From: Kocuria sp. p3-SID1428
Lineage (GTDB): Bacteria > Actinomycetota > Actinomycetes > Actinomycetales > Micrococcaceae
NCBI RefSeq assembly: GCF_025149945.1
Contig: NZ_JALXVH010000020.1
Span: 1 to 46,828, forward strand
DNA length: 46,828 bases
Direction: 5' to 3'
In this document: in pieces, positions 4,517 to 46,828 of the stretch
Layout of the letters: each line of letters begins with the position of its first letter
Position numbering within the stretch: position 1 is the stretch's first letter
Notes under the pieces: model-generated
The model's database searches: none
What the model was told of the DNA's origin: nothing
The model's input: only the letters and a program-made list of their open reading frames with translations
Program-made: the position numbers and the translations under genes

Positions 4517-5274
4517 GCGCACCCGAGATCCGCGTCTGCGCATCCAAGGACGAGCTCGCCGAGCTGGTGACCCGTGAGGTAATCGGCGTCCTGGCGCAGG
4601 CCCAGGCCCAGCGCGGGCGCGCCTCGATCGCGCTCACCGGCGGAACCATGGGCACCAAGACGATCGCCGCCCTGGCCGCCGCGTCGCGGATCACGCAGGA
4701 GCAGCTCGACTGGTCCCGGATCGACTTCTGGTGGTCGGACGAGCGCTTCGTGCCGCGCGGCGACTCCGAGCGCAATGTCCAGCAGGCCATGGATGCCGTG
4801 ACCTCCGCAGCCCCCGAGCTGCAGCTGCCGCCGGAGAACGTCCACGTGATCGGCAGCTCCAGTGAGTTCGCCACCCCGGAGGCCTCGGCCCTGGACTATC
4901 TCGAGGAGCTGCGCGCCGCGGCCGCCGATCAGGGCACCGCCGAGCTGCCGCCGATCGACGTGGCCCTGCTGGGCGTCGGCCCGGACGGCCACGTGGCTTC
5001 GGTCTTCCCCGGCCACCCGGAGCTGGAGATCGAGGAGGCCACTGTCGTCGCCGTCCACGACTCCCCCAAGCCCCCTCCGCTGCGGGTGTCCATGACGCTG
5101 CCGCTGATCCGCACCGCGGAGCATGTGTGGTTCGTGGTGGCCGGTGCGGACAAGGCCGAGGCCGTGGGTCGTCTGCTGGCAGGCGGTCCGCGCGAGCAGA
5201 CCCCGGCCTGTGGTGCCACGGGCACCGTGAGCACGCGGCTCTACGGAACGGCGGACGCCCTTCCCGACAGCTGA
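4513..5274 (+). CDS. pgl: 6-phosphogluconolactonase
   Basis: Hydrolyses 6-phosphogluconolactone to 6-phosphogluconate, the step after G6PDH. The 253-residue product has the DevB/Pgl signatures LTGGTMGT near residue 41, WSDERFVP near residue 75 and LGVGPDGHVASVFPGH near residue 153. The open frame runs further upstream to 4393, but that part only mirrors opcA. The ATG at 4513 overlaps the opcA stop and follows GGAGGAG at 4501-4507, which fixes the start. It is the last gene of the operon and is followed by a strong terminator. Confidence 0.95.
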   Translation: MSAPEIRVCASKDELAELVTREVIGVLAQAQAQRGRASIALTGGTMGTKTIAALAAASRITQEQLDWSRIDFWWSDERFVPRGDSERNVQQAMDAVTSAAPELQLPPENVHVIGSSSEFATPEASALDYLEELRAAAADQGTAELPPIDVALLGVGPDGHVASVFPGHPELEIEEATVVAVHDSPKPPPLRVSMTLPLIRTAEHVWFVVAGADKAEAVGRLLAGGPREQTPACGATGTVSTRLYGTADALPDS

Positions 5275-5302
5275 GAGCTTCCGGGCCGCGTCCGGACATG
5301 GC

Positions 5303-5341
5303 AGAAGCCCCGCCTCCCCTTCACGGGGAGGCGGGGCTTCT
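5303..5341. terminator. Bidirectional terminator between pgl and secG
   Basis: A 17-bp perfect stem (5303-5319 with 5325-5341) with a 5-base loop. The outer pairs are A-T rich, so each strand ends in a short T-containing run. It sits between the converging pgl (plus) and secG (minus) genes and can serve both. Confidence 0.9.
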
Positions 5342-5360
5342 TCTGCCGGTGACCGCTGAT

Positions 5361-5630
5361 TCAGAGACCGGGGACGCCGGAGGCGGAGTCCACGAATCGC
5401 ATCGAGATGCCGTAGGCGGCGATGCACAGGGCCCAGACGATGATCACCGTGGTGGTCAGCCGCACGAGGTTCTTCTGCGCGACGCCCGAGGTGTTCAGCG
5501 ACTGGGTCATGCCGCCGCCGAACATGTCCGACAGTCCGCCGCCCTTGCCCTTGTTGAGCAGGACCAGGACGACCGCCAGGACGCTGGTGAGGACGATGAT
5601 CCCCAGCAGGATGTCTTGCAGGATCTCCAT
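5361..5630 (-). CDS. secG: Preprotein translocase subunit SecG
   Basis: Small accessory subunit of the SecYEG channel in the cytoplasmic membrane. The 89-residue product has two membrane segments (about residues 3-25 and 56-76) joined by the typical Gly-rich loop containing NKGKGGGLSDMFGGG. The ATG at 5630 follows GGGAGA. It is the last gene of the gap-pgk-tpiA-secG group, the usual actinobacterial arrangement. Confidence 0.95.
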   Translation of the reverse strand: MEILQDILLGIIVLTSVLAVVLVLLNKGKGGGLSDMFGGGMTQSLNTSGVAQKNLVRLTTTVIIVWALCIAAYGISMRFVDSASGVPGL

Positions 5631-5675
5631 GGATCTCCCTCTGAAGTCGTGATCCGTGCAGCCGACCGAGTCGGA

Positions 5676-6491
5676 TCAGTCGGTCGTGAGGTGCTGCTCG
5701 AACTTCGCAATGCTAGCAAACTCGTCCGCATCGAGGCTGGCGCCGCCGACCAGGGCGCCGTCGACATCCTTGCCGCGCAGGATCTCCGCCACGTTCTTGG
5801 ACTTCACGGAGCCGCCGTAGAGGATGCGGGTCGACTGGGCCGTCTGCTCGTCATAGAGCTTCCCGAGCTCGGCGCGGATGGCCGCGGACATCTCCTGGGC
5901 GTCCTCCGGGCCGGCGACCTTGCCGGTGCCGATGGCCCACACGGGCTCGTAGGCGATGACCAGCTCGGCGACCTTCTCGGCCGACAGGCCCTTGATCGAG
6001 CCGCGGACCTGCTCGAGGGTGTGCTCCACGTGCTGGCCGGCCTCCCGGACCTCCAGGCCCTCGCCGACGCACAGTACCGGGGTCAGGCCGTGGCGGTGGG
6101 CGGCCTCGATCTTGGCCAGGCACTGCTCATCGGTCTCGCCGTGGATCGTGCGGCGCTCGGAGTGCCCGACCAGCACGTAGGTGCAGCCGAGCTTGGTCAG
6201 CATCTCACCGGAGATGTCGCCGGTGTAGGCGCCGGAGTCCTGATCCGAGAGGTCCTGGCCGCCGAAGCGCACGGGCAGGTCATCGCCGGTCACGACGGTC
6301 TGCACGGAACGCAGGTGCGTGAAGGGCGGGAACACGGCGACCTCCACGCGGTCGAAGTCGTGCTTGGCGTCCTGCAGCGTCCAGGCCAGCTTCTGCAGCA
6401 GGGCCACGCCCTGCTGGTGGTCGAGGTTCATCTTCCAGTTGCCGGCGATCAGCGGAGTGCGATCGAATGCGCCATTGGTCTGCGAGGTCAT
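5676..6491 (-). CDS. tpiA: Triosephosphate isomerase
   Basis: Interconverts dihydroxyacetone phosphate and glyceraldehyde 3-phosphate. The 271-residue product carries the substrate lysine in AGNWKMN (residues 16-22), the catalytic histidine in VGHSERR, the catalytic glutamate in [11 protein letters not shown] and the phosphate-binding YGGSVK. I chose the ATG at 6491 because AAGGAG lies 8 bases upstream and homology starts just after it; a longer open frame to 6575 only adds sequence overlapping pgk. Its first 212 bases are overlapped by the abnormal run-on of the pgk frame, but tpiA itself and its ribosome binding site look intact. Confidence 0.96.
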
Positions 6492-7949: not shown

Positions 7950-9278
<1,329 letters not shown>

Positions 9279-12444: not shown

Positions 12445-14526
12445 TCAGTCGAGGATCTCGCCGGTGTCCATATCGACGGCGGGAAGCGATGTCTCGGCCT
12501 CGTCCTGCTGCCCGTGCAGCCCGGCGAAGACCTTCAGCGCCAGGGCGCTGCCGAAGCCCGGGACCTCCTCGAGCTGCTCGACCCTGGCCTGCTTGATCTT
12601 CTTGACGGAGCCGAAGTGCTTGAGCAGGGCCTTCTGCTTGGCCGGACCCACGCCCGGCAGATCGTCCAGCACGGAGGCCGTCATGGCTCGGCCGCGCTTG
12701 GCGCGGTGGAAGGTGATCGCGAACCGGTGGGCCTCGTCGCGCACGCGCTGGACCAGGTAGAGGGCCTCTGAGGCGCGCGGGAGAATCACGGGGAAGTCGT
12801 CGTCCGGGACCCAGACCTCCTCGAGGCGCTTGGCCAGGCCCACGACGGCGATGTCCGAGATCCCCAGATCCGCCAGCGCCCGTGCAGCCGCGGCGACCTG
12901 GGGCGGGCCGCCGTCGACGATGACGAGGTTCGGCGGGTACGCGAAGCGCTTGCGCTGGGCGGGGTCCTCGGCCAGGTCGTCCTGGTCGAGCTCGCCGGTG
13001 CGCGGGGCCTCCTGCTCCTGCTCCTGCTGCTGCTCCAGGTGGCGGCGGAAGCGGCGGTGGATGACGTCGTACATGGAGGCGGTGTCATCGCGGGCGGCCT
13101 CCCCCGTGATGGAGAACTTGCGGTACTCGGCCTTGCGCGGCAGCCCGTCCTCGAACACGACCATGGAGGCCACCACGTTGCTTCCCTGCACGTGGGAGAT
13201 GTCGTAGCACTCGATGCGCATGAGGGCATCGGGCAGGTCCAGGGCCTCCTGCAGCTGCTGCAGCGAGGCCGAGCGCGTGGTGATGTCCCCAGCCCGGCGG
13301 GACTTGTGCAGGGCCAGGGCCTGACGGGCGTTCTCCTGCACCGTCTGCATGAGCTGGGCCTTCTCACCGCGCTGCGGGGTGGACACGCTCACTCGGGAAC
13401 CGCGCAGCTGCGTGAGCCACTGCTCCATCTGCTCCCGGTCCTCCGGCTCCTGGGAGACCAGCACGGTGCGCGGCACCGCGTCCTCCCGGTAGTCGAGCTC
13501 GGCGCTGCGGGGGCGATGGTGGCTGCCCTCAGCGGCCTCGCGAGCCTGCTGCACCTCGCGCTGCTCCGCGGCCGCTGACTCCGTCTCGCCGTAGACCTGC
13601 TGCAGCAGCACCTGCAGCAGGTGCCCGGCGTCGGTCTCCTCGACCTTCTCCGTGACCCAGCCGCGCTGCCCGCGGATGCGCCCGCCGCGCACGTGGAAGA
13701 CCTGCACGGCCGCCTCGAGCTCGTCGTCGGCCAGGGCGAAGAAGTCGGCATCGACAGCGTCGGAGAGCACGACCGCGTTGCGCTCGAAGGCCTTGCGCAG
13801 GGCCTCGACGTCATCGCGGCGTGCGGCGGCGGTCTCGAAGTCCATCTCGGCCGCCGCCTGCTTCATCAGCCGCTCCTGCTCGCGGATGAAGGGCTCGGCG
13901 TGACCGGCCATGAAGCGGCAGAGGTCATCGACCAGATCGCGGTGGTCCTCCACCGAGATCTGCCCCACGCACGGTGCTGCGCACTTGCCGATGTAGCCCA
14001 GCAGGCAGGGCCGCCCGGAGGACTCGGCGCGGCGGTAGACGCCCTTGGAGCACGAGCGCACCGGGAAGACGCGCAGCACGGCGTCGAGGGTCTCGCGGAT
14101 GGCCCAGGCCTGGGAGTAGGGGCCGAAGTAGCGGGTGCCCTTCTGCTTGGCGCCTCGGGTCACCATGGCCCGGGGCACCTCCTCCCCCAGCGTGACGGCC
14201 AGGTAGGGGTAGGACTTGTCGTCCCGGTAGGCGATGTTGAAGCGCGGGCGGAACTGCTTGATCCAGGTGTACTCGAGCTGCAGGGACTCCATCTCCGAGC
14301 CGACCACGACCCACTCCACGCCGGCGGCCGTGGTGACCATGGCTCGGGTCTTGGGGGCCAGCGTGGACGGCGGGGCGAAGTAGGACCACAGCCGGTTGCG
14401 CAGGTTCTTGGCCTTGCCGACGTAGATGACGCGCCCGGTCTCGTCGCGGAAGCGGTAGACGCCGGGGTCCTGCGGTATCTCGGATCGCTGGGGGCGGTAG
14501 GAGACCGGATCAGCCACGCCGGGCAT
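12445..14526 (-). CDS. uvrC: Excinuclease ABC subunit C
   Basis: Endonuclease of nucleotide excision repair that makes both incisions around a lesion in the UvrB-DNA complex. The 693-residue protein has the N-terminal GIY-YIG nuclease (GVYRF at 22-26, YVGKAKNL at 35-42), the Cys cluster [13 protein letters not shown], a UVR domain around residues 208-240, the RNase H-like nuclease with CYDISHVQG, and a C-terminal double helix-hairpin-helix ([13 protein letters not shown]). A Gln/Glu-rich insert ([12 protein letters not shown]) interrupts the nuclease half and looks disordered. The ATG at 14526 follows GGAGG and overlaps the acyltransferase gene by 17 bases. Confidence 0.97.
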
Positions 14527-15231
14527 CCCCCTCCAAGGTCGTGGAGGTGTTGAAGGTCTCCGCGCGCTCCTGGCCCGACAGCTGCCCGATCGCCTCCATG
14601 ACCCGGTCGGTCAGCTCACGGCGCTGCCTGCCGGTCTGGCGGCCCTCGGCGCACGGGACCTGGATCAGCTCGCCCAGAGTCACGGTGAACCGGCGCGGGC
14701 GCGGCCACGTGGTCCCCAGCGGCTGGACGTCCTGCGTGCCCTCCAGGGCGACGGGGAGGATAGGAGCCCCCGTGCTCAGCGCGGCGTGCGCCACACCGGT
14801 GCGGCCGCGGTAGAGGCGTCCGTCGCGGGAGCGGGTGCCCTCCGGGAAGACGCCGAAGACTCCCCCGGCCTCGAGCAGCTCGATCGCCGGATCCATGGCG
14901 GCCGCCGCATCGCGACGCGACGAGCGGTCCACCGGGATGATGCCCAGCAGCTCGTAGACCTGGCGCATGGCCCAGCCGCGGATCCCCGGCGTGTTCAGCG
15001 GCGAGGCCTTGGCGATGAAGGAGACCCGTCGCGGGAAGATCGCGGAGAGGATGATGCTGTCGATCAGCGCGCGGTGGTTCGAGGCCACGATCACCGGCCC
15101 CTCGGCCGGGAAGTTCTCCTTGCCGCGGATCTGCGCGCGGCACAGGACCATGAAGGCGGCGGCCACGGCGCGCTGCGTAGTGCGGTAGAGCCCAATCTGC
15201 GAGGGGACCGCACGCAGCCTGTCCAGCGCGC

Positions 15232-15235
<4 letters not shown>
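14510..15235 (-). CDS. 1-acylglycerol-3-phosphate O-acyltransferase family protein
   Basis: Predicted PlsC-type acyltransferase that would acylate lysophosphatidic acid at the membrane face. The 241-residue product has the HX4D active-site box NHRALID (His54, Asp59) and the substrate-binding FPEGTRS loop about 75 residues later. The ATG at 15235 overlaps the uvrA stop as ATGA and its end overlaps uvrC, so it is inserted in a uvrA-uvrC operon. The open frame upstream of 15235 is a shadow of uvrA. Exact substrate is unknown; other lysophospholipid acyltransferase roles are possible. Confidence 0.88.
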
Positions 15236-18207
<2,972 letters not shown>

Positions 18208-39116: not shown

Positions 39117-39196
39117 GCCCAAGTGGCGGAATCGGCAGACGCGCCGCACTCAAAATGCGGTTCTTCGGAGTGTGGGTTCGAGTCCCACCTTGGGCA
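39117..39196 (+). tRNA. tRNA-Leu (anticodon CAA)
   Basis: The acceptor arms GCCCAAG (39117-39123) and CTTGGGC (39189-39195) pair perfectly, with discriminator A at 39196. The anticodon stem CCGCA/TGCGG (39144-39148 and 39156-39160) encloses the loop CTCAAAA, giving anticodon CAA at 39151-39153. A short extra arm built on CTTCGGAG and a T arm GTGGG-TTCGAGT-CCCAC follow. The 3' CCA is not encoded (ACCC). It marks the left end of the integrated element: the integrase gene ends 58 bases downstream. Confidence 0.95.
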
Positions 39197-39200
39197 CCCT
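39165..39200 (+). other. Probable left attachment site (attL) in the tRNA-Leu 3' end
   Basis: The integrase gene lies directly after the tRNA, with its 3' end facing it, the usual arrangement for elements that integrate in the tRNA T-arm/acceptor region and restore the gene. The core cannot be delimited without the right-hand copy, which is outside the window; the T arm and acceptor strand are the expected identity region. Confidence 0.6.
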
Positions 39201-39254: not shown

Positions 39255-40376
39255 CTAGGCTGGGCCGTCTGCCCACATTTTGCCCACATTCGTCTGCGAG
39301 AACGCGTGATCCAGCGAGGTCGCCACGGCCTCAAGGTCGTCGTCGAACAAGTCGGCGTAAATGTCGAGGGTCATTGCGGCTGAGGCGTGTCCGAGCATCC
39401 GCTGCACGGCCTTCACGTTCGCCCCAGAGGCCACCGCCAGCGACGCCGCAGTGTGCCGTAGATCGTGCACTGTCATCTTGGGCAGGCCGGCGCGCTGCAA
39501 GGCCGCGGTGAACCACGAGCGGGTGCCGCCGTCGCCGGTGAACAGGTTGGGGCGCGGCTGGAATCCCCCGTCACGGCCTGGGAACACCAGATCGTCCCCG
39601 GCCTTGTCCTCGAGCTGCTGGACGATCAGCGGGGCCAAGAAGGCCGGGTACGGGACGCTGCGCTGCTTATGGCTCTTGGGGGTGCCCACCTCGAACTTGG
39701 AGCCGGTGATCTGCACGGCGTTCCGCTCGACTCGGATGCGCCGGCGGGTGGTGTCCACGTCCTTCACGCGCAGCCCGATCGCCTCGCCCCACCGCAGCCC
39801 GGCATACCCAAGCACGAGCACGAGTGCCGGCCGGTCGGAGGCGGCGGCCAAGGCGTGCAGCTGGTCATGCGACAGGTAGACGTGAGCCTTCGCCACTTTC
39901 CGGGGCAGCGCGACACCCTCGGCGGGGTTGGCGAGGATGCGGCGGTCCCGGACTGCGCTGGCCAGGATGGACGACAGCACTCCGTGGGCGCGCTTCACGG
40001 TCGTGGGCGACTTCTCCCGGGCGAGCTCCGCGACCCATTCCTCGACGGCGGAGAACCGCACATCCGTGACCGCCGTGGTGCCCCAACGCGGCTGCACATG
40101 GTTCCGCCACGCGGACTCCACTGTCCGCAGCGTGGACGGCTTCAAACTCGAGCGGCTGGCGATCCAACGCTCCCCCAGCGCCCCTATCGTGACGCGGGTG
40201 TCCGCGGGGTCGATCCACTCGCCTCTGTCCTTCGACACTTCGACGGTACGGGCGAAGCGCTCGGCGTCGCGCTTGGTGGTGAAGCCCCTCTTGTCTGTCT
40301 GCCGTCGATCCGGGGTGCGGTAGCGGACCCGGTAGCGACGGCCCGCCTTCGTCTCGTAGGACTCAATCGTTGCCAT
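39255..40376 (-). CDS. int: Tyrosine site-specific recombinase (phage integrase)
   Basis: Integrates and, with excisionase, excises the element. From ATG 40376 the product has 373 residues: an N-terminal arm-binding region (ATIESYETKAGRRYRVRYR), a core-binding domain (about 63-150) and a catalytic domain with Arg195 in GYAGLRWGEA, His304 and Arg307 in HDLRH, His330 in MLGH and nucleophile Tyr340 in IYADL. All active-site residues are present, so it should be functional. The open frame continues upstream to 40559 but only as a shadow of the repressor gene. The start overlaps the repressor end by 14 bases, so int is probably translated from the repressor transcript. Confidence 0.95.
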   Translation of the reverse strand: MATIESYETKAGRRYRVRYRTPDRRQTDKRGFTTKRDAERFARTVEVSKDRGEWIDPADTRVTIGALGERWIASRSSLKPSTLRTVESAWRNHVQPRWGTTAVTDVRFSAVEEWVAELAREKSPTTVKRAHGVLSSILASAVRDRRILANPAEGVALPRKVAKAHVYLSHDQLHALAAASDRPALVLVLGYAGLRWGEAIGLRVKDVDTTRRRIRVERNAVQITGSKFEVGTPKSHKQRSVPYPAFLAPLIVQQLEDKAGDDLVFPGRDGGFQPRPNLFTGDGGTRSWFTAALQRAGLPKMTVHDLRHTAASLAVASGANVKAVQRMLGHASAAMTLDIYADLFDDDLEAVATSLDHAFSQTNVGKMWADGPA

Positions 40377-41043
40377 GCCGCTGATCCTCGGCGATGCGCT
40401 GGCGCAGCTCGTCCAGCAGTTCCCGAGTGATGCGCCCCTTCTTCTGCGGCGTGGCACCGGCAGGGGCGCGGCGTTCCGTCTCCTGGGAGAGCGGGTGCCC
40501 CCACAGCCTGTAGCACCACCCCAGGTACTCGCTGCTATCCAGCCCGAGCTTCTCGGCATGCCGACGATCAGCCGGAGATGCAGCCGTCGACAGATCCTCC
40601 ATCTGCCCGTAAGTCAGCGACCCACCCGCAGCGGCCGACATCCTGGCCGGGCTCGCTCTGACCGCCTCGAGCATATGAGCAACCCGGCTGGATCCCCCGG
40701 GCGTCATGAGCACGCTGAAGCCGCCGTCCTCCCCCGTGAACATCTTTCGGAGGCCGGCCCCGGTTACAGCCGGCTCCCACGACAGCTGCACATCTTCATC
40801 TGTCCGCAGAAGATCGACGGGTCGAACCTCCTGATCCGTAGCAGCGGTGAGCAGGTTGGCGAGCATGAGCAACGTGTCCACCGAGAGAGTCTGGTCGCCG
40901 CGTTCAATGTGGCTGATCCGTCCAGCCGACCACCGGAGCCCGTTCTTACGCGCTTCCTGCACGAGACCTTCGATGGTGAGACCCGCGGATAGCCGGATGG
41001 CGCGTGCGTTCTTTCCCACGACGGTGGCGATTGTCTCGGTCAT
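40363..41043 (-). CDS. XRE-family HTH repressor of the element
   Basis: A 226-residue protein with an N-terminal helix-turn-helix (about residues 8-67: GKNARAIRLSAGLTIEGL, WSAGRISHIERGDQTLSVDTL), followed by a region without a recognised catalytic or self-cleavage motif. Position, orientation and a divergent operator region make it the likely lysogeny regulator. The ATG at 41043 lies 6 bases after TACGAT and has no Shine-Dalgarno sequence, so the mRNA is probably leaderless. The lack of a LexA/CI-type Ser-Lys cleavage signature suggests induction by something other than RecA-driven cleavage; this is an inference. Confidence 0.85.
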   Translation of the reverse strand: MTETIATVVGKNARAIRLSAGLTIEGLVQEARKNGLRWSAGRISHIERGDQTLSVDTLLMLANLLTAATDQEVRPVDLLRTDEDVQLSWEPAVTGAGLRKMFTGEDGGFSVLMTPGGSSRVAHMLEAVRASPARMSAAAGGSLTYGQMEDLSTAASPADRRHAEKLGLDSSEYLGWCYRLWGHPLSQETERRAPAGATPQKKGRITRELLDELRQRIAEDQRHGND

Positions 41044-41161: not shown

Positions 41162-41359
41162 ATGAGCACCAAGCCCTACACCATCGAGGACATGATCCAG
41201 ATGTTCCCCGGAACCACCCGAGGGTCCTGGGCGCAGATGCGCTACCGCGGCACCGGCCCCGAGTTCTTCCGCGTCGGCAAGAAGGTCTTTTACACGCCCG
41301 AGGCCGTGGAGAAGTACGTCCAGGCGCAGACCCGGACCATCACGGGCTCCGCAGCCTGA
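41162..41359 (+). CDS. xis: Excisionase-like winged-helix protein
   Basis: A 65-residue DNA-binding protein. TIEDMIQMFPGTTRGSWAQMR followed by GTGPEFFRVGKKVFYTPEAVEKYV is the AlpA/Xis (MerR-like helix-turn-helix) pattern, split here around residue 28. Such proteins bend DNA to direct excision. The ATG has AAGGAGG upstream. It is the first rightward gene, divergent from the repressor and under the O1/O2 control region. Confidence 0.85.
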   Translation: MSTKPYTIEDMIQMFPGTTRGSWAQMRYRGTGPEFFRVGKKVFYTPEAVEKYVQAQTRTITGSAA

Positions 41360-42303: not shown

Positions 42304-42624
42304 ATGACTACGACCAGCGTAGCGGCACCAGGGCGCTCTGTCTCGCAGATGACCGCAGACCTGCTCGAGGCCGACGACCCCGTGGCGACGAACATCTGGT
42401 GGTGCGGCCACCGCGCCGGTGTCTCCGCTGAGCGCGCCCGCGTTCAGCTTCTCGCTGCGGACTTCGGGACCGACCTCGGCCCCTCGCCGGCCCTGCAGCC
42501 CCGCCTGCGCGCCGTACCGGACCAGGGCTCTCCGGAGGCCGGGAGGGCTGTCCGTGACGCCGCGGTGGCCGCATGGCGGCAGCTGTACGCCTCCGGCGCG
42601 ATCGTCTCGGAGGTGGCCGCATGA
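42304..42624 (+). CDS. Phage protein of unknown function (106 residues)
   Basis: Ala-rich, 106 residues, no recognised domain. A WWCGHRAGVSAERARVQLLA segment (about residues 32-51) could be a helix-turn-helix-like element, but the match is weak. The ATG follows GAGAGGAAAA. Its stop overlaps the ATPase start as ATGA, so it heads the replication operon and may assist the ATPase. Confidence 0.6.
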   Translation: MTTTSVAAPGRSVSQMTADLLEADDPVATNIWWCGHRAGVSAERARVQLLAADFGTDLGPSPALQPRLRAVPDQGSPEAGRAVRDAAVAAWRQLYASGAIVSEVAA

Positions 42625-43934
42625 GCGATCCCACCGCACCGAACATCGAGACCCGGCTCAAGATCACCGCCGCCTCTCAGATCAAGTCTCGCCGGCAACG
42701 GTGGTTCTGGGCACCGGACGGGTCCGGGATCATCCCGCTCGGTGTCGGCACGATGTTCGCCGGCAACGGGGGTGAGGGCAAGACCACCTTCGCGCAGCGC
42801 CTCGCCGCCGACCTCACCCGCGGAGAGCTCGAGGGCGATCTCGCCGGCGTCGTCGGAAGCGTCCTGTTCCTGGGACCGGAGGACGATTGGGCCACCGTCA
42901 CCATCCCCCGGCTCAAGGGAGCCGGCGCCGACCTCGACCGCGTGTACCAAGTCCAGGTGGAGACCTGGACGGACTTCACGACGATGGAGCGTGAGCTGAA
43001 GTTCCCGCTCGACGTGGCAATGCTGCGTGACGCAGTGGAGCAGACCGATGCCCGCATGATCGTCATCGACCCCGCGCCGTCGCTGATGGACGGGGACATG
43101 AACAAGGTCCAGGACGTGCGCCGCTCCTATGAACCTCTCATGGCCCTGGCCCAGCAGAAGGACCTCGCGGTCATCCTGATCAACCACTTCGGCAAGGGCG
43201 CAGGCAGCGTCCGCAACAAGCTGTCCGGCTCCCAGGCCTGGCGAGACTTGACGCGCTCCTATCTCGCCTTCGCGCTGGACCCCGAGACCGGGGAGCGGGT
43301 GCTCTCCCAGGACAAGAACAACTACGGCACGGGCCTCAAGTCGTACACCTTCGACCTTGAATCCGTGACCGTGCAGACCGACGACGGCGAGACCGCCGAA
43401 GTCGGACGAGCACGGTTCCTGGGCCTGTCCGAAGTCAGCGTGAACGACATCATCAACCGAGAAGCCGCCTCCGATGATGACGCCGAGGACCGCAACGCCG
43501 CCCAGGTGTTCATCCTCGACTACCTGCGCGGGTGCCAGGCACAGGAGGCCAGTGCTGGCGACGTGATCAAGGCCGGCATCGCTGCTGGCTTCTCGAAGGA
43601 CGAGATCAAGCACGCGCGCAAACGATCACGCGATCCGCAGATCGTCACGGCGAAGTCGAAGTTCAAGGCGGGTTGGATCTGGCAGATCGACCCGGAGGAT
43701 GTCGAAGGTGCCACGGGAACCCCCGAAGGTGCCCAAGGTGCCGAAGGTGCCAGCACACGAGAAGGGACGGCACCTTCGGCACCTTCGGTCGAAGGTGCCA
43801 CGAAGGAGCCAGGTGTCCACGTGTTGGCACCTTCGGCACCTTCGGCACCTTCGGCACCTTCGATCGGCTGTCCTCACGGCTTCGATCCGGCCGGATGCAT
43901 CCGTTGTCAGGCTGAGCGGATCGGTGCGGCATGA
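42621..43934 (+). CDS. RecA-like/RepA-type P-loop ATPase, probable replicative helicase
   Basis: A 437-residue AAA_25/RSF1010 RepA-like NTPase. Walker A is GNGGEGKT at residues 48-55, VLFLGPEDDW follows near residue 90, and Walker B is RMIVIDPAPSL near residue 150, then ILINHFGKG and SGSQAWRDLTRS, all typical of hexameric RepA-like helicases. Residues 362-414 are a low-complexity linker of EGA and APS triplets encoded by a striking 9-bp repeat array, followed by a small Cys cluster (CPHGFDPAGCIRC) that could bind zinc. The ATG at 42621 overlaps the previous stop. Likely drives replication of the excised element. Confidence 0.85.
   Translation: MSDPTAPNIETRLKITAASQIKSRRQRWFWAPDGSGIIPLGVGTMFAGNGGEGKTTFAQRLAADLTRGELEGDLAGVVGSVLFLGPEDDWATVTIPRLKGAGADLDRVYQVQVETWTDFTTMERELKFPLDVAMLRDAVEQTDARMIVIDPAPSLMDGDMNKVQDVRRSYEPLMALAQQKDLAVILINHFGKGAGSVRNKLSGSQAWRDLTRSYLAFALDPETGERVLSQDKNNYGTGLKSYTFDLESVTVQTDDGETAEVGRARFLGLSEVSVNDIINREAASDDDAEDRNAAQVFILDYLRGCQAQEASAGDVIKAGIAAGFSKDEIKHARKRSRDPQIVTAKSKFKAGWIWQIDPEDVEGATGTPEGAQGAEGASTREGTAPSAPSVEGATKEPGVHVLAPSAPSAPSAPSIGCPHGFDPAGCIRCQAERIGAA
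43704..43861 (+). repeat. Array of 9-bp repeats in both orientations (iteron-like)
   Basis: GAAGGTGCC occurs at 43704, 43725, 43743 and 43791, with one-mismatch copies at 43734 and 43802. Its reverse complement GGCACCTTC occurs at 43769, 43778, 43826, 43835, 43844 and 43853. Ten exact copies lie in 158 bases, many directly abutting with a 9-bp period. All are in phase with the ATPase frame, forward copies encoding Glu-Gly-Ala and reverse copies Ala-Pro-Ser. The opposed blocks can form long hairpins. Confidence 0.9.
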
Positions 43935-44573: not shown

Positions 44574-44734
44574 CCGCGAACATCAGGCGCTACTACTGGC
44601 GCGAAGGCGAGCACGTCTGGGATGGGTACCTCATCGGCGGTTCCCTGAAGGGCTCCACCTGGATCAGCGATGCTGATGCTTGGGACCTCTGCGAAGCCCT
44701 CGCGAACTTCATCGACTCGGAGGCCGGCCAGTGA
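44570..44734 (+). CDS. Small phage protein (54 residues), unknown
   Basis: 54 residues, rich in Trp and Tyr (RRYYWREGEHVWDGYLIGG), probably a small beta-structured protein with a C-terminal helix. GTG start overlapping the previous stop, with GGGAGG upstream. No family recognised. Confidence 0.55.
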   Translation: MTANIRRYYWREGEHVWDGYLIGGSLKGSTWISDADAWDLCEALANFIDSEAGQ

Positions 44735-45039
44735 TCGATCTCCATGACCGGCTCCTGCGGGAGCTCGAGGACATCCAGCGCGCCGACCCCACCGCGATCC
44801 CGTGCCGACGCGCCAACGGGACGGCCTGGATCACCGGCACCCCCAAGGACACGTGGTACGCGCAATTGCACTGCGAGAAGTGCCCTGCCAAGGCGGCGTG
44901 CGGCGGGTACGCCCTCGCTGCCGACGAGCCCGCCGGAGTGTGGGGCGGGCTCACCGTCGCGCAGCGCAAGCAGCTCAACGCCCAGCGCCGCAAAGCCACC
45001 GCCCCCAAACCACTCGACAGCCGCGACACCGCGGCCTGA
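44731..45039 (+). CDS. Phage-encoded WhiB-like protein
   Basis: A 102-residue Wbl protein, a [4Fe-4S]-cluster regulator class found only in actinobacteria and their phages. The four cluster cysteines are Cys25, Cys48, Cys51 and Cys57 in the C-Xn-C-X2-C-X5-C arrangement, followed by the GVWGG turn at residues 69-73 and a basic C-terminus (QRKQLNAQRRKATAPK). Host Wbl proteins bind the housekeeping sigma factor; phage WhiB proteins such as that of TM4 can interfere with host WhiB2. The GTG at 44731 overlaps the previous stop and has GGAGG. Confidence 0.85.
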   Translation: MIDLHDRLLRELEDIQRADPTAIPCRRANGTAWITGTPKDTWYAQLHCEKCPAKAACGGYALAADEPAGVWGGLTVAQRKQLNAQRRKATAPKPLDSRDTAA

Positions 45040-46004: not shown

Positions 46005-46828
46005 ATGGCTCTGAATCCCACCACCACCCGCGACGCCGCCAAGGCGTTCGCCCCCGACCTGGTCGCCTTCACCCCCCAGGAGGCCGTCCCCGAGGCCCTG
46101 ATCCTCAAGGCATCCACCGTCGTCTCGCAGTCCGGCATCGGAGACGCCCCCTCCGTCCTGGTCCCCTGGGTCCGAGAAGAGTCCGCCACCTGGGCAGCCG
46201 AGGGCGCCGAGCTCGACCTCACACCCCCCGGCCTCTCCCAGGTGCAGATCAACGTCCGCAAGGTCACTCAGTTCTTCACCGTCTCCAACGAGCTGTGGAA
46301 CGCCGAGGCAGCCAACAACCCCGAGGTGCTGTCCACCTCCTCGATGCGCGCCGTGACCAAGGCCGCGAACACCGCGTTCGTGCAGGGCGTCGCCACCGCA
46401 GCCAACCCGCTCGTCGGCATCGCCAACACCGAGGGCATCATCGAGGGCGGGAACATCACCACCAGCCTCGATCCGCTCGCTGACTCCATCGCGCAGATCG
46501 AAGCCAACGGCGGCGCCCCGAGCGTGATCCTCGCCAATCCGATCGCGTGGGGACGACTGCGCAACCTCAAGACCGCGACCAACGCGAACACCTCGCTGCT
46601 GGGAGCAGGCACCGAGGACCAGGGCAAGCGCCTGTTCGGCATCGAGGTCATCACCAGCGCCGCAGTGCCCGAAGACCAGATGGTCATCATCGACAAGAAC
46701 TCCATCGCGTCCGTGGTCTCGCAGGTCGATGTCGCCGTCAGCGAGCACGCGGCCTTCCGCAACGACTCGACCGCGCTGCGCACCACCTGGCGACTCGGCT
46801 GGGCAGTCCAGCACCCCGACCGCCTCGC
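46005..46828 (+). CDS. Major capsid protein, HK97 family (3' end outside window)
   Basis: The frame from ATG 46005 is open to the last base (274 codons and 2 bases), so the gene is cut by the edge. It begins MALNPTTTRDAAKAFAPDLV and carries the HK97 gp5-like pattern: VPWVREESATWAAEGAELD, KVTQFFTVSNELW (the strand leading to the spine helix), and a C-terminal IEVITSAAVPEDQMVIIDK segment with ALRTTWRLGWAVQHP near the end. No upstream delta domain or protease is seen; the separate scaffold gene fits that. GAAGGAG lies 8 bases before the start. Confidence 0.88.
   Translation, partial: MALNPTTTRDAAKAFAPDLVAFTPQEAVPEALILKASTVVSQSGIGDAPSVLVPWVREESATWAAEGAELDLTPPGLSQVQINVRKVTQFFTVSNELWNAEAANNPEVLSTSSMRAVTKAANTAFVQGVATAANPLVGIANTEGIIEGGNITTSLDPLADSIAQIEANGGAPSVILANPIAWGRLRNLKTATNANTSLLGAGTEDQGKRLFGIEVITSAAVPEDQMVIIDKNSIASVVSQVDVAVSEHAAFRNDSTALRTTWRLGWAVQHPDRL

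Follow-up and report, generated by a model that had tools for sequence, protein, structure and literature searches.

The stretch of DNA analysed here (46.8 kb, referred to throughout as the window) contains a phage-like element that adjoins a tRNA-Leu gene and carries a gene for an AAA_25 ATPase resembling RepA of RSF1010 (Table 1). Judging from its position next to the integrase, tRNA-Leu(caa) is the probable attachment site of the element; a tandem TGCCCACATTT close by, at 39270-39290 in the 3' end of the integrase gene, is possibly an integrase arm or attachment site. The order of the genes fits that of PICIs (int, divergent regulator, excisionase, rep); a capsid gene follows, and the right end of the element lies beyond the window. 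No primase was recognised among nine scanned ORFs of the element, and the 106-aa ORF upstream of the ATPase gene, whose stop is overlapped by the start of that gene, had no match in Pfam or PHROG within the limits set.

Table 1. Features of the element and of the repeat array, in window coordinates
Feature	Position	Strand	Remarks
tRNA-Leu(caa)	39117..39198	+	
Tyrosine integrase	39255..40559	-	
Helix-turn-helix regulator	40363..41043	-	ORF overlaps start of integrase ORF
Small helix-turn-helix protein, excisionase-like position	41162..41356	+	HTH_17 match under its cut-off
AAA_25 (RepA-like) ATPase/helicase gene, 437 aa (P0001)	42621..43934	+	
RecA-fold ATPase domain, residues 13-285	42657..43475	+	AlphaFold2 model, most blocks pLDDT >80
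Predicted winged-helix (WH) DNA-binding domain, residues 286-357	43476..43691	+	AlphaFold2 model
5' block, four forward sites (43704, 43725, 43734 with one mismatch, 43743)	43704..43751	+	Spacing 21-9-9
Disordered linker, residues 365-415, encoded by most of the array	43713..43865	+	pLDDT <50
Two inverted sites (43769, 43778)	43769..43786	-	
Forward site (43791) and one-mismatch site (43802)	43791..43810	+	
3' block, four inverted sites (43826, 43835, 43844, 43853)	43826..43861	-	
C-terminal tail with CPHGFDPAGCIRC and short helix	43866..43931	+	AlphaFold2 model
WhiB-like protein, within element	44731..45036	+	
Major capsid protein, cut by window end	46005..46826	+	

The ATPase protein (P0001) matched AAA_25 with 86.6 bits (cut-off 27), as well as RSF1010 RepA and RadA, and contains the AAA_25/RecA-fold ATPase domain of RSF1010 RepA-like helicases. 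Structure matches of its model cover residues 13-272, the ATPase part, and the match to RSF1010 RepA (PDB 1g8y) excludes the predicted WH. This domain is modelled as helices 285-303, 312-321 and 326-335 and strands 340-345 and 352-356, an H-H-H-E-E order, with a block pLDDT of 89-97 for residues 291-360. In whole-model structure searches the matches showed the ATPase and no WH structure match was seen; the isolated WH, modelled from its single sequence with no alignment (pLDDT 72.6), retrieved nothing below E 1, an uninformative outcome.

Directly after the predicted WH, the DNA encoding the disordered linker is occupied by an array of repeats. The 9-mer GAAGGTGCC occurs exactly ten times at 43704-43861, in the 3' end of the AAA_25 gene, four times forward and six times inverted (complement GGCACCTTC), with one-mismatch copies at 43734 (CAAGGTGCC) and 43802 (GAAGGAGCC). 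All forward copies lie in phase 0 and are read as Glu-Gly-Ala, while all inverted copies lie in phase 2 and are read as Ala-Pro-Ser; the exact count thereby confirms the preliminary description of this DNA, which had noted ten exact 9-bp repeats in both orientations, in phase, inside the ATPase gene. Rather than a single regular tandem, the array is made of blocks, with spacings of 21, 9, 9, 28, 9, 11, 11, 26, 9, 9 and 9 bp when the one-mismatch copies are included, and Tandem Repeats Finder reported three short period-9 arrays in this region. The rest of the window holds a single further exact GAAGGTGCC, at 8562. Its densest unrelated 9-mers reach 3 copies per 160 bp, none of 100 other 450-bp window tiles contains four copies of one 9-mer, and in 40 dinucleotide shuffles of the array region no 9-mer reached three occurrences.

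By protein-level comparison, a close relative (P0002, 97% identical to P0001) is 6 residues, or two units, shorter at the last Ala-Pro-Ser block, so that the distal block has some freedom to gain or lose units. Free variation in repeat number without effect on replication had been named beforehand as an argument against a replication origin; variation does occur in the 3' block, to the partial extent just described.

Arrays in related loci

The comparison draws on 186 readable loci, one of them the window itself. Their sources were IMG/VR contigs without an assigned host, GTDB genomes whose titles are those of actinobacteria, further genomes from three families, and three plasmids. The protein sample comprised the 120 listed of 202 proteins and the locus sample the best 80 of 164 loci, with a further set of loci for 30 of 43 matches; a 55-sequence alignment proved too diverse as a query for scanning genomes, and a closer alignment was used instead. 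Removal of 39 loci at least 90% identical to a kept one left a non-redundant set of 147, of which 146 were counted. L078, whose contig ends at the WH, was left out, L124, L125, L131 and L132 were dropped before the counts as the same places as other loci, L085, L101 and L138 were dropped from all counts, and L193-L197 stand outside them. In L085, L101 and L138 the reading frame of the AAA_25 gene is broken near the match.

Within 450 bp behind the WH, 63 of the 146 non-redundant loci contain at least four exact copies of one 9-mer. Tiles from other parts of these loci, the window's own excluded, reached this number in 15 of 2380 cases (Fisher p 7.6e-70), and shuffles in none of 5840. At least three copies were found in 94/146 loci, 74/2380 tiles and 17/5840 shuffles. 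In 50 of the 146, which count as zero, no 9-mer occurs three times behind the WH; part of these hide degenerate arrays, and the rest may be without any array. Two loci that are zero by exact count, L092 and L112, do have sites once a single mismatch is allowed, and these are arranged as in related loci. Both had appeared to keep the linker peptides without the DNA repeat, a pattern that the preliminary description had held against an origin, and their mismatched sites remove the objection for these two.

Among homologues on non-actinobacterial plasmids (L134, L194-L197) none of five has the array. L194 is no fair test of array presence, since it encodes a 208-aa protein without a WH; the other four, from plasmids of Campylobacter, Ruegeria and Subdoligranulum, encode AAA_25 proteins that do end in a WH-like part and show no such array. 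The WH end of the AAA_25 protein is near-identical in a Bifidobacterium genome, a Subdoligranulum plasmid and a Campylobacter plasmid (L130, L134 and L195), and the copy on the Campylobacter plasmid adjoins a TnpW gene; this type is a very mobile element without the array.

The arrays start at a median of 12 nt past the end of the WH, and both orientations occur in 90 of 94, a single orientation in four. Same-orientation spacings peak at 9 bp (126 cases), followed by 8, 12, 11 and 21 bp, and orientation changes at spacings of 21-26 bp. Loci whose repeated 9-mers (words) are unrelated share runs of three spacings together with orientation in 154 of 3243 pairs, as compared to a mean of 24.3 and a maximum of 42 with shuffled spacings. 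The order >>><<< with spacings of 12, 9, 24-27, 9 and 9-11 is found in L093, L094, L096 and L097, whose words differ, and >><< with 20, 23-25 and 19-20 in L044, L051, L054 and L080. In the gap between blocks GC is 5.6 points lower on average (mean difference -0.056) and is lower in 69% of 86 arrays; an AT-rich melting region of the classical kind is weak. L160 and L161 each have six sites (three exact) in a near-perfect palindrome, spaced 34-9-26-9-34 and 30-9-31-9-29, that starts just past the stop codon.

Most of the 63 strong arrays (47) lie within the gene, six straddle the stop codon and ten begin at or behind it. In the GAAGGTG family, tallied from 69 loci and not the final 94, in-gene copies are read as EGA (29), APS (34), GTF (9), KVP (5) and, in one copy, a fifth way, so that five of the six readings are used. 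Because arrays lie at or behind the stop and five of six readings are used, it is the DNA and not the peptide that appears to be selected, which bears out what had been proposed from the presence of both orientations; given that EGA and APS make up 63 of the 78 in-gene copies, some peptide constraint may also be present. Codon usage in the window linker differs from the rest of the gene: GAA encodes 5 of 6 Glu (5 of 20 in the rest), GGT 6 of 8 Gly (3 of 31) and CCT 6 of 8 Pro (1 of 12). The window and L081 agree in their word and in its 21-9-9 spacing; in their ATPase domains, by contrast, no more than 90 of 175 same-amino-acid codons are identical.

Repeat words and predicted winged helices

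Across the 94 loci, word similarity correlated with WH identity at r 0.531 and with ATPase identity at 0.245. The partial correlation of word with WH given the ATPase was 0.488 (reached by none of 2000 permutations) and that of word with ATPase given the WH 0.050 (reached by 48 of 2000), in distance-matrix permutations, from which shared ancestry is not fully removed. ATPase segments of 65 residues gave r values of 0.14-0.28, versus 0.53 for the WH. Of 312 alignment columns, the 30 most associated with the word include 27 in the WH (66 tested there); 13 of the 30 lie in the helix-turn-helix at 312-337 (25 tested) and six in the recognition helix at 326-337 (11 tested).

Pairs of loci with ATPases at least 50% and WHs less than 40% identical have a word similarity of 0.37-0.38, near the background of pairs low in both (0.35-0.38), and the 22 pairs with ATPases less than 30% and WHs at least 50% identical reach 0.73-0.75. 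Similar words are found despite ATPases only 25-45% identical (L192/L096, L191/L005 and L093/L001, for example). Exceptions occur among pairs whose WHs are alike but whose ATPases differ (the 30 listed of 79): the words of L164 (similarity 0.36-0.60) and L013 (0.42-0.50) depart from those of several WH relatives.

Words were also transferred blindly, at a threshold of 0.65, between loci with WHs at least 50% and ATPases less than 45% identical. The borrowed word predicted at least three sites in 25 of 56 loci and failed in 31; among the controls, this number was reached in 2 of 843 tiles and by 7 of 280 words taken from unrelated WHs. In a leave-one-out version with a strict threshold, at least two sites were found in 12/56 loci, 0/843 tiles and 0/56 unrelated words. 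These data suggest that the array word changes together with the predicted WH, such that the two look like lock and key carried together in the DNA. Of the two candidate binders named in the preliminary description, the ATPase and the 106-residue protein, the covariation favours the former, with its WH as the putative binder of the array.

Two loci from one metagenome by contig name, L001 and L002, have ATPases 93% identical and WHs 23% identical, with the words GAAGGTGCC and CCATACATC, respectively. Their DNA is ~78-95% identical per 60 columns through most of the ATPase, drops at the start of the WH, stays low across the array and the gene end, and comes back to ~80% some 280 bp past the L001 stop, after which it is patchy. 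At the DNA level, WH and array have been exchanged as a block between L001 and L002. The pair L089/L083 has the same pattern (ATPase 84%, WH 22%), but here DNA similarity does not return further on.

On the circular Streptomyces plasmid CP108844 (21.6 kb), no array lies behind the AAA_25 gene. We scanned it with a matrix built from the nine L025 sites, the proteins of L025 and CP108844 being 74% identical over 372 residues; 8 of the 12 best sites fall within 200 bp (14279-14475), 4.7 kb from the AAA_25 gene and in a stretch without a listed CDS (14095 to 15429), and in eight shuffles clusters held at most one site. The sister plasmid NZ_CP058979 (L193) has an alignable block directly after its AAA_25 gene, recognised by sequence reading and by alignment with L135 and L025, and a scan with the L025 word gave one site only (16704). 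No other replication protein was recognised on the two plasmids in the CDS tested (10/27 and 4/24).

As a clean plasmid test we dropped pCG2 (L133, NC_004534.1), which also encodes a Rep_1-like protein (E 9.7e-06, under the cut-off) and is placed in a rolling-circle family (PMC4379921, in excerpt). This plasmid has a Prim-Pol/AAA_25 protein, a non-coding ACATACAT-type array right after it and the weak Rep_1 match (469-2337, 2376-2639 and 4806-6155), and looks as if it were fused from two replicons.

A candidate origin and its alternatives

A number of features make the array an origin candidate: firstly, its place directly after the predicted DNA-binding domain of a helicase; secondly, its geometry; thirdly, the covariation of word and WH. 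We consider it likely, on this sequence evidence, that the repeats are double-stranded sites (iterons) for the helicase's own WH and together form the replication origin of the element; the preliminary description had already put the array forward as a candidate origin, and these features support that reading. The weak AT-richness, the copy-number variation of the 3' block and the four array-less plasmid loci count against a universal origin of the classical kind.

The alternative that survives best, although we hold it to be unlikely, is a cluster of WH sites that serves something besides initiation, such as autoregulation, partition, copy-number titration or incompatibility. Covariation of word and WH speaks for recognition only, and repeats of plasmid origins also act in incompatibility (PMC9455977, in excerpt). 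However, like the PICI, SCCmec and pRN1 origins, the arrays are placed late in the gene or behind it and not at its promoter, and both circular Streptomyces plasmids, on which the tested CDS (10 of 27 and 4 of 24) revealed no other replication protein, carry the block.

Two further readings seem to us very improbable and were rejected. In one, the inverted blocks fold the 3' end of the mRNA into a strong hairpin for stability, translation or termination; the RNA of window 43695-43870 indeed folds at -121.7 kcal/mol (z -12), and nearly all arrays contain both orientations. A hairpin does not, however, predict that word identity tracks the WH, the CP108844 array sits kilobases from its gene, block orders vary, and four arrays have one orientation only. 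In the other, the repeats are a functionless, recombination-driven microsatellite tied to the WH by linkage alone, in keeping with the differing unit number of the 3' block in P0001 and P0002 and with the joint movement of WH and array. Yet similar words persist across ATPases so divergent that unselected DNA should be unalignable, spacings are common to loci with unrelated words well beyond the shuffle maximum, and the CP108844 array does not adjoin its gene. Selection on the peptide, with a low-complexity linker favoured and the DNA repeat a by-product, is scarcely credible and was likewise rejected: EGA and APS readings predominate, but non-coding arrays contradict it, one word is read as EGA, KVP, APS and GTF, and the Glu, Gly and Pro of the window linker are mostly encoded by codons less used in the rest of the gene.

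If the array is an origin, initiation might proceed as follows. The C-terminal WH would bind the 9-bp word, as the covariation suggests. Sites 9-12 and 21 bp apart, in blocks of opposite orientation, would gather protomers, and two facing helicase rings could assemble, a step drawn from the array geometry and from what is proposed for SaPIs. ATP hydrolysis would then open the DNA between the blocks, and primase and polymerase would enter, as PICI/SaPI, Cch2 and RSF1010 suggest by analogy; that the host supplies the primase is a guess, made because none was recognised in the nine scanned ORFs of the element. The array may overlap coding sequence because the encoded disordered linker tolerates many sequences, and its place within linker-coding DNA would make WH and array one block that recombination can exchange whole, switching replicon specificity in one step.

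With some reserve, we favour the broader view that actinobacterial phages, satellites and plasmids share a widespread class of self-encoded origins, as yet without a name, in which recognition domain and array occupy one 3'-end stretch and are swapped whole, changing replication specificity (and escaping incompatibility or interference) in one crossover; dozens of WH/word pairs would make the code readable. Our analysis offers candidate origins for many phage-like elements of actinobacteria, a large group, and for some plasmids, and would explain the repeat linkers of AAA_25 proteins as DNA sites rather than protein features. The natural swaps offer a ready specificity experiment, with many WH variants each accompanied by its own word and, in L001/L002, a near-constant ATPase; in favourable cases the word is predictable from the protein and can be found elsewhere in the replicon.

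Relation to known systems

In phage lambda, ori lies in gene O, whose reading frame contains the iterons that the O protein itself binds. Those iterons are longer than the repeats of the window array, fewer in number and all in direct orientation, and O is not known to be a helicase. The likeness, iterons inside an initiator-type gene, is one of layout, by description only. SaPI Rep is an AAA+ helicase of superfamily 3, and P0001, as an AAA_25 protein, is not of that type.

According to excerpts of the published work, SaPI Rep and Cch2 each use their C-terminal domain to recognise repeats that follow directly on the gene encoding them (PMC7581432). In PICIs the origin is the region immediately 3' of the initiator gene, with two iteron sets flanking a stretch rich in AT, and a plasmid can replicate from rep-ori (PMC6092414). 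The PICI/SaPI rep-ori and SCCmec Cch2 resemble the window element as integrated satellites with an initiator helicase whose C-terminal domain recognises, or here would recognise, short repeats (PMC7581432, PMC6092414, in excerpt); these lie directly 3' of the gene in PICI/SaPI, and mostly inside it in our loci. Blocks of opposite orientation are common in our arrays, whose AT-rich centre is weak. The present loci differ from these rep-ori systems firstly in helicase type, the motor of the window being an AAA_25 RecA-fold protein like RSF1010 RepA; secondly, in that most arrays overlap the coding sequence; and thirdly, in that WH and array are exchanged together, which is absent from the excerpted text of PMC7581432 and PMC6092414.

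Other systems are alike in part. In the IncU plasmid RA3, oriV lies at the 3' end of repB, with one truncated 25-nt repeat in the ORF and an AT-rich region downstream (PMC9455977, in excerpt); an origin at the 3' end of an initiator gene with a partial repeat in the ORF is a likeness in layout only. ORF904 of pRN1 is a WH-bearing replication protein with its origin directly behind the gene, where the authors' model has the WH bind, but this origin is a 100-nt stem-loop and not a repeat array, and the helicase belongs to superfamily 3 (PMC4234260, in excerpt). RSF1010 leaves recognition of its iterons to another protein, RepC (same source). A literature search, with most subscription journals outside its scope, found no mapped origin for these actinobacterial phage-like elements or plasmids and no paper that we recognised as describing arrays in AAA_25 genes.

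Dense 9-mer clusters also occur elsewhere in viral contigs, with no tie to the AAA_25 gene (10 copies at 10557-10762 of L059 and 9 at 10692-10844 of L073). In L048 (2593-2662) and L049 (2308-2377), the array word ACTCGTGCC clusters again, as two forward and two inverted copies, ~1.1-1.4 kb upstream of the AAA_25 gene.
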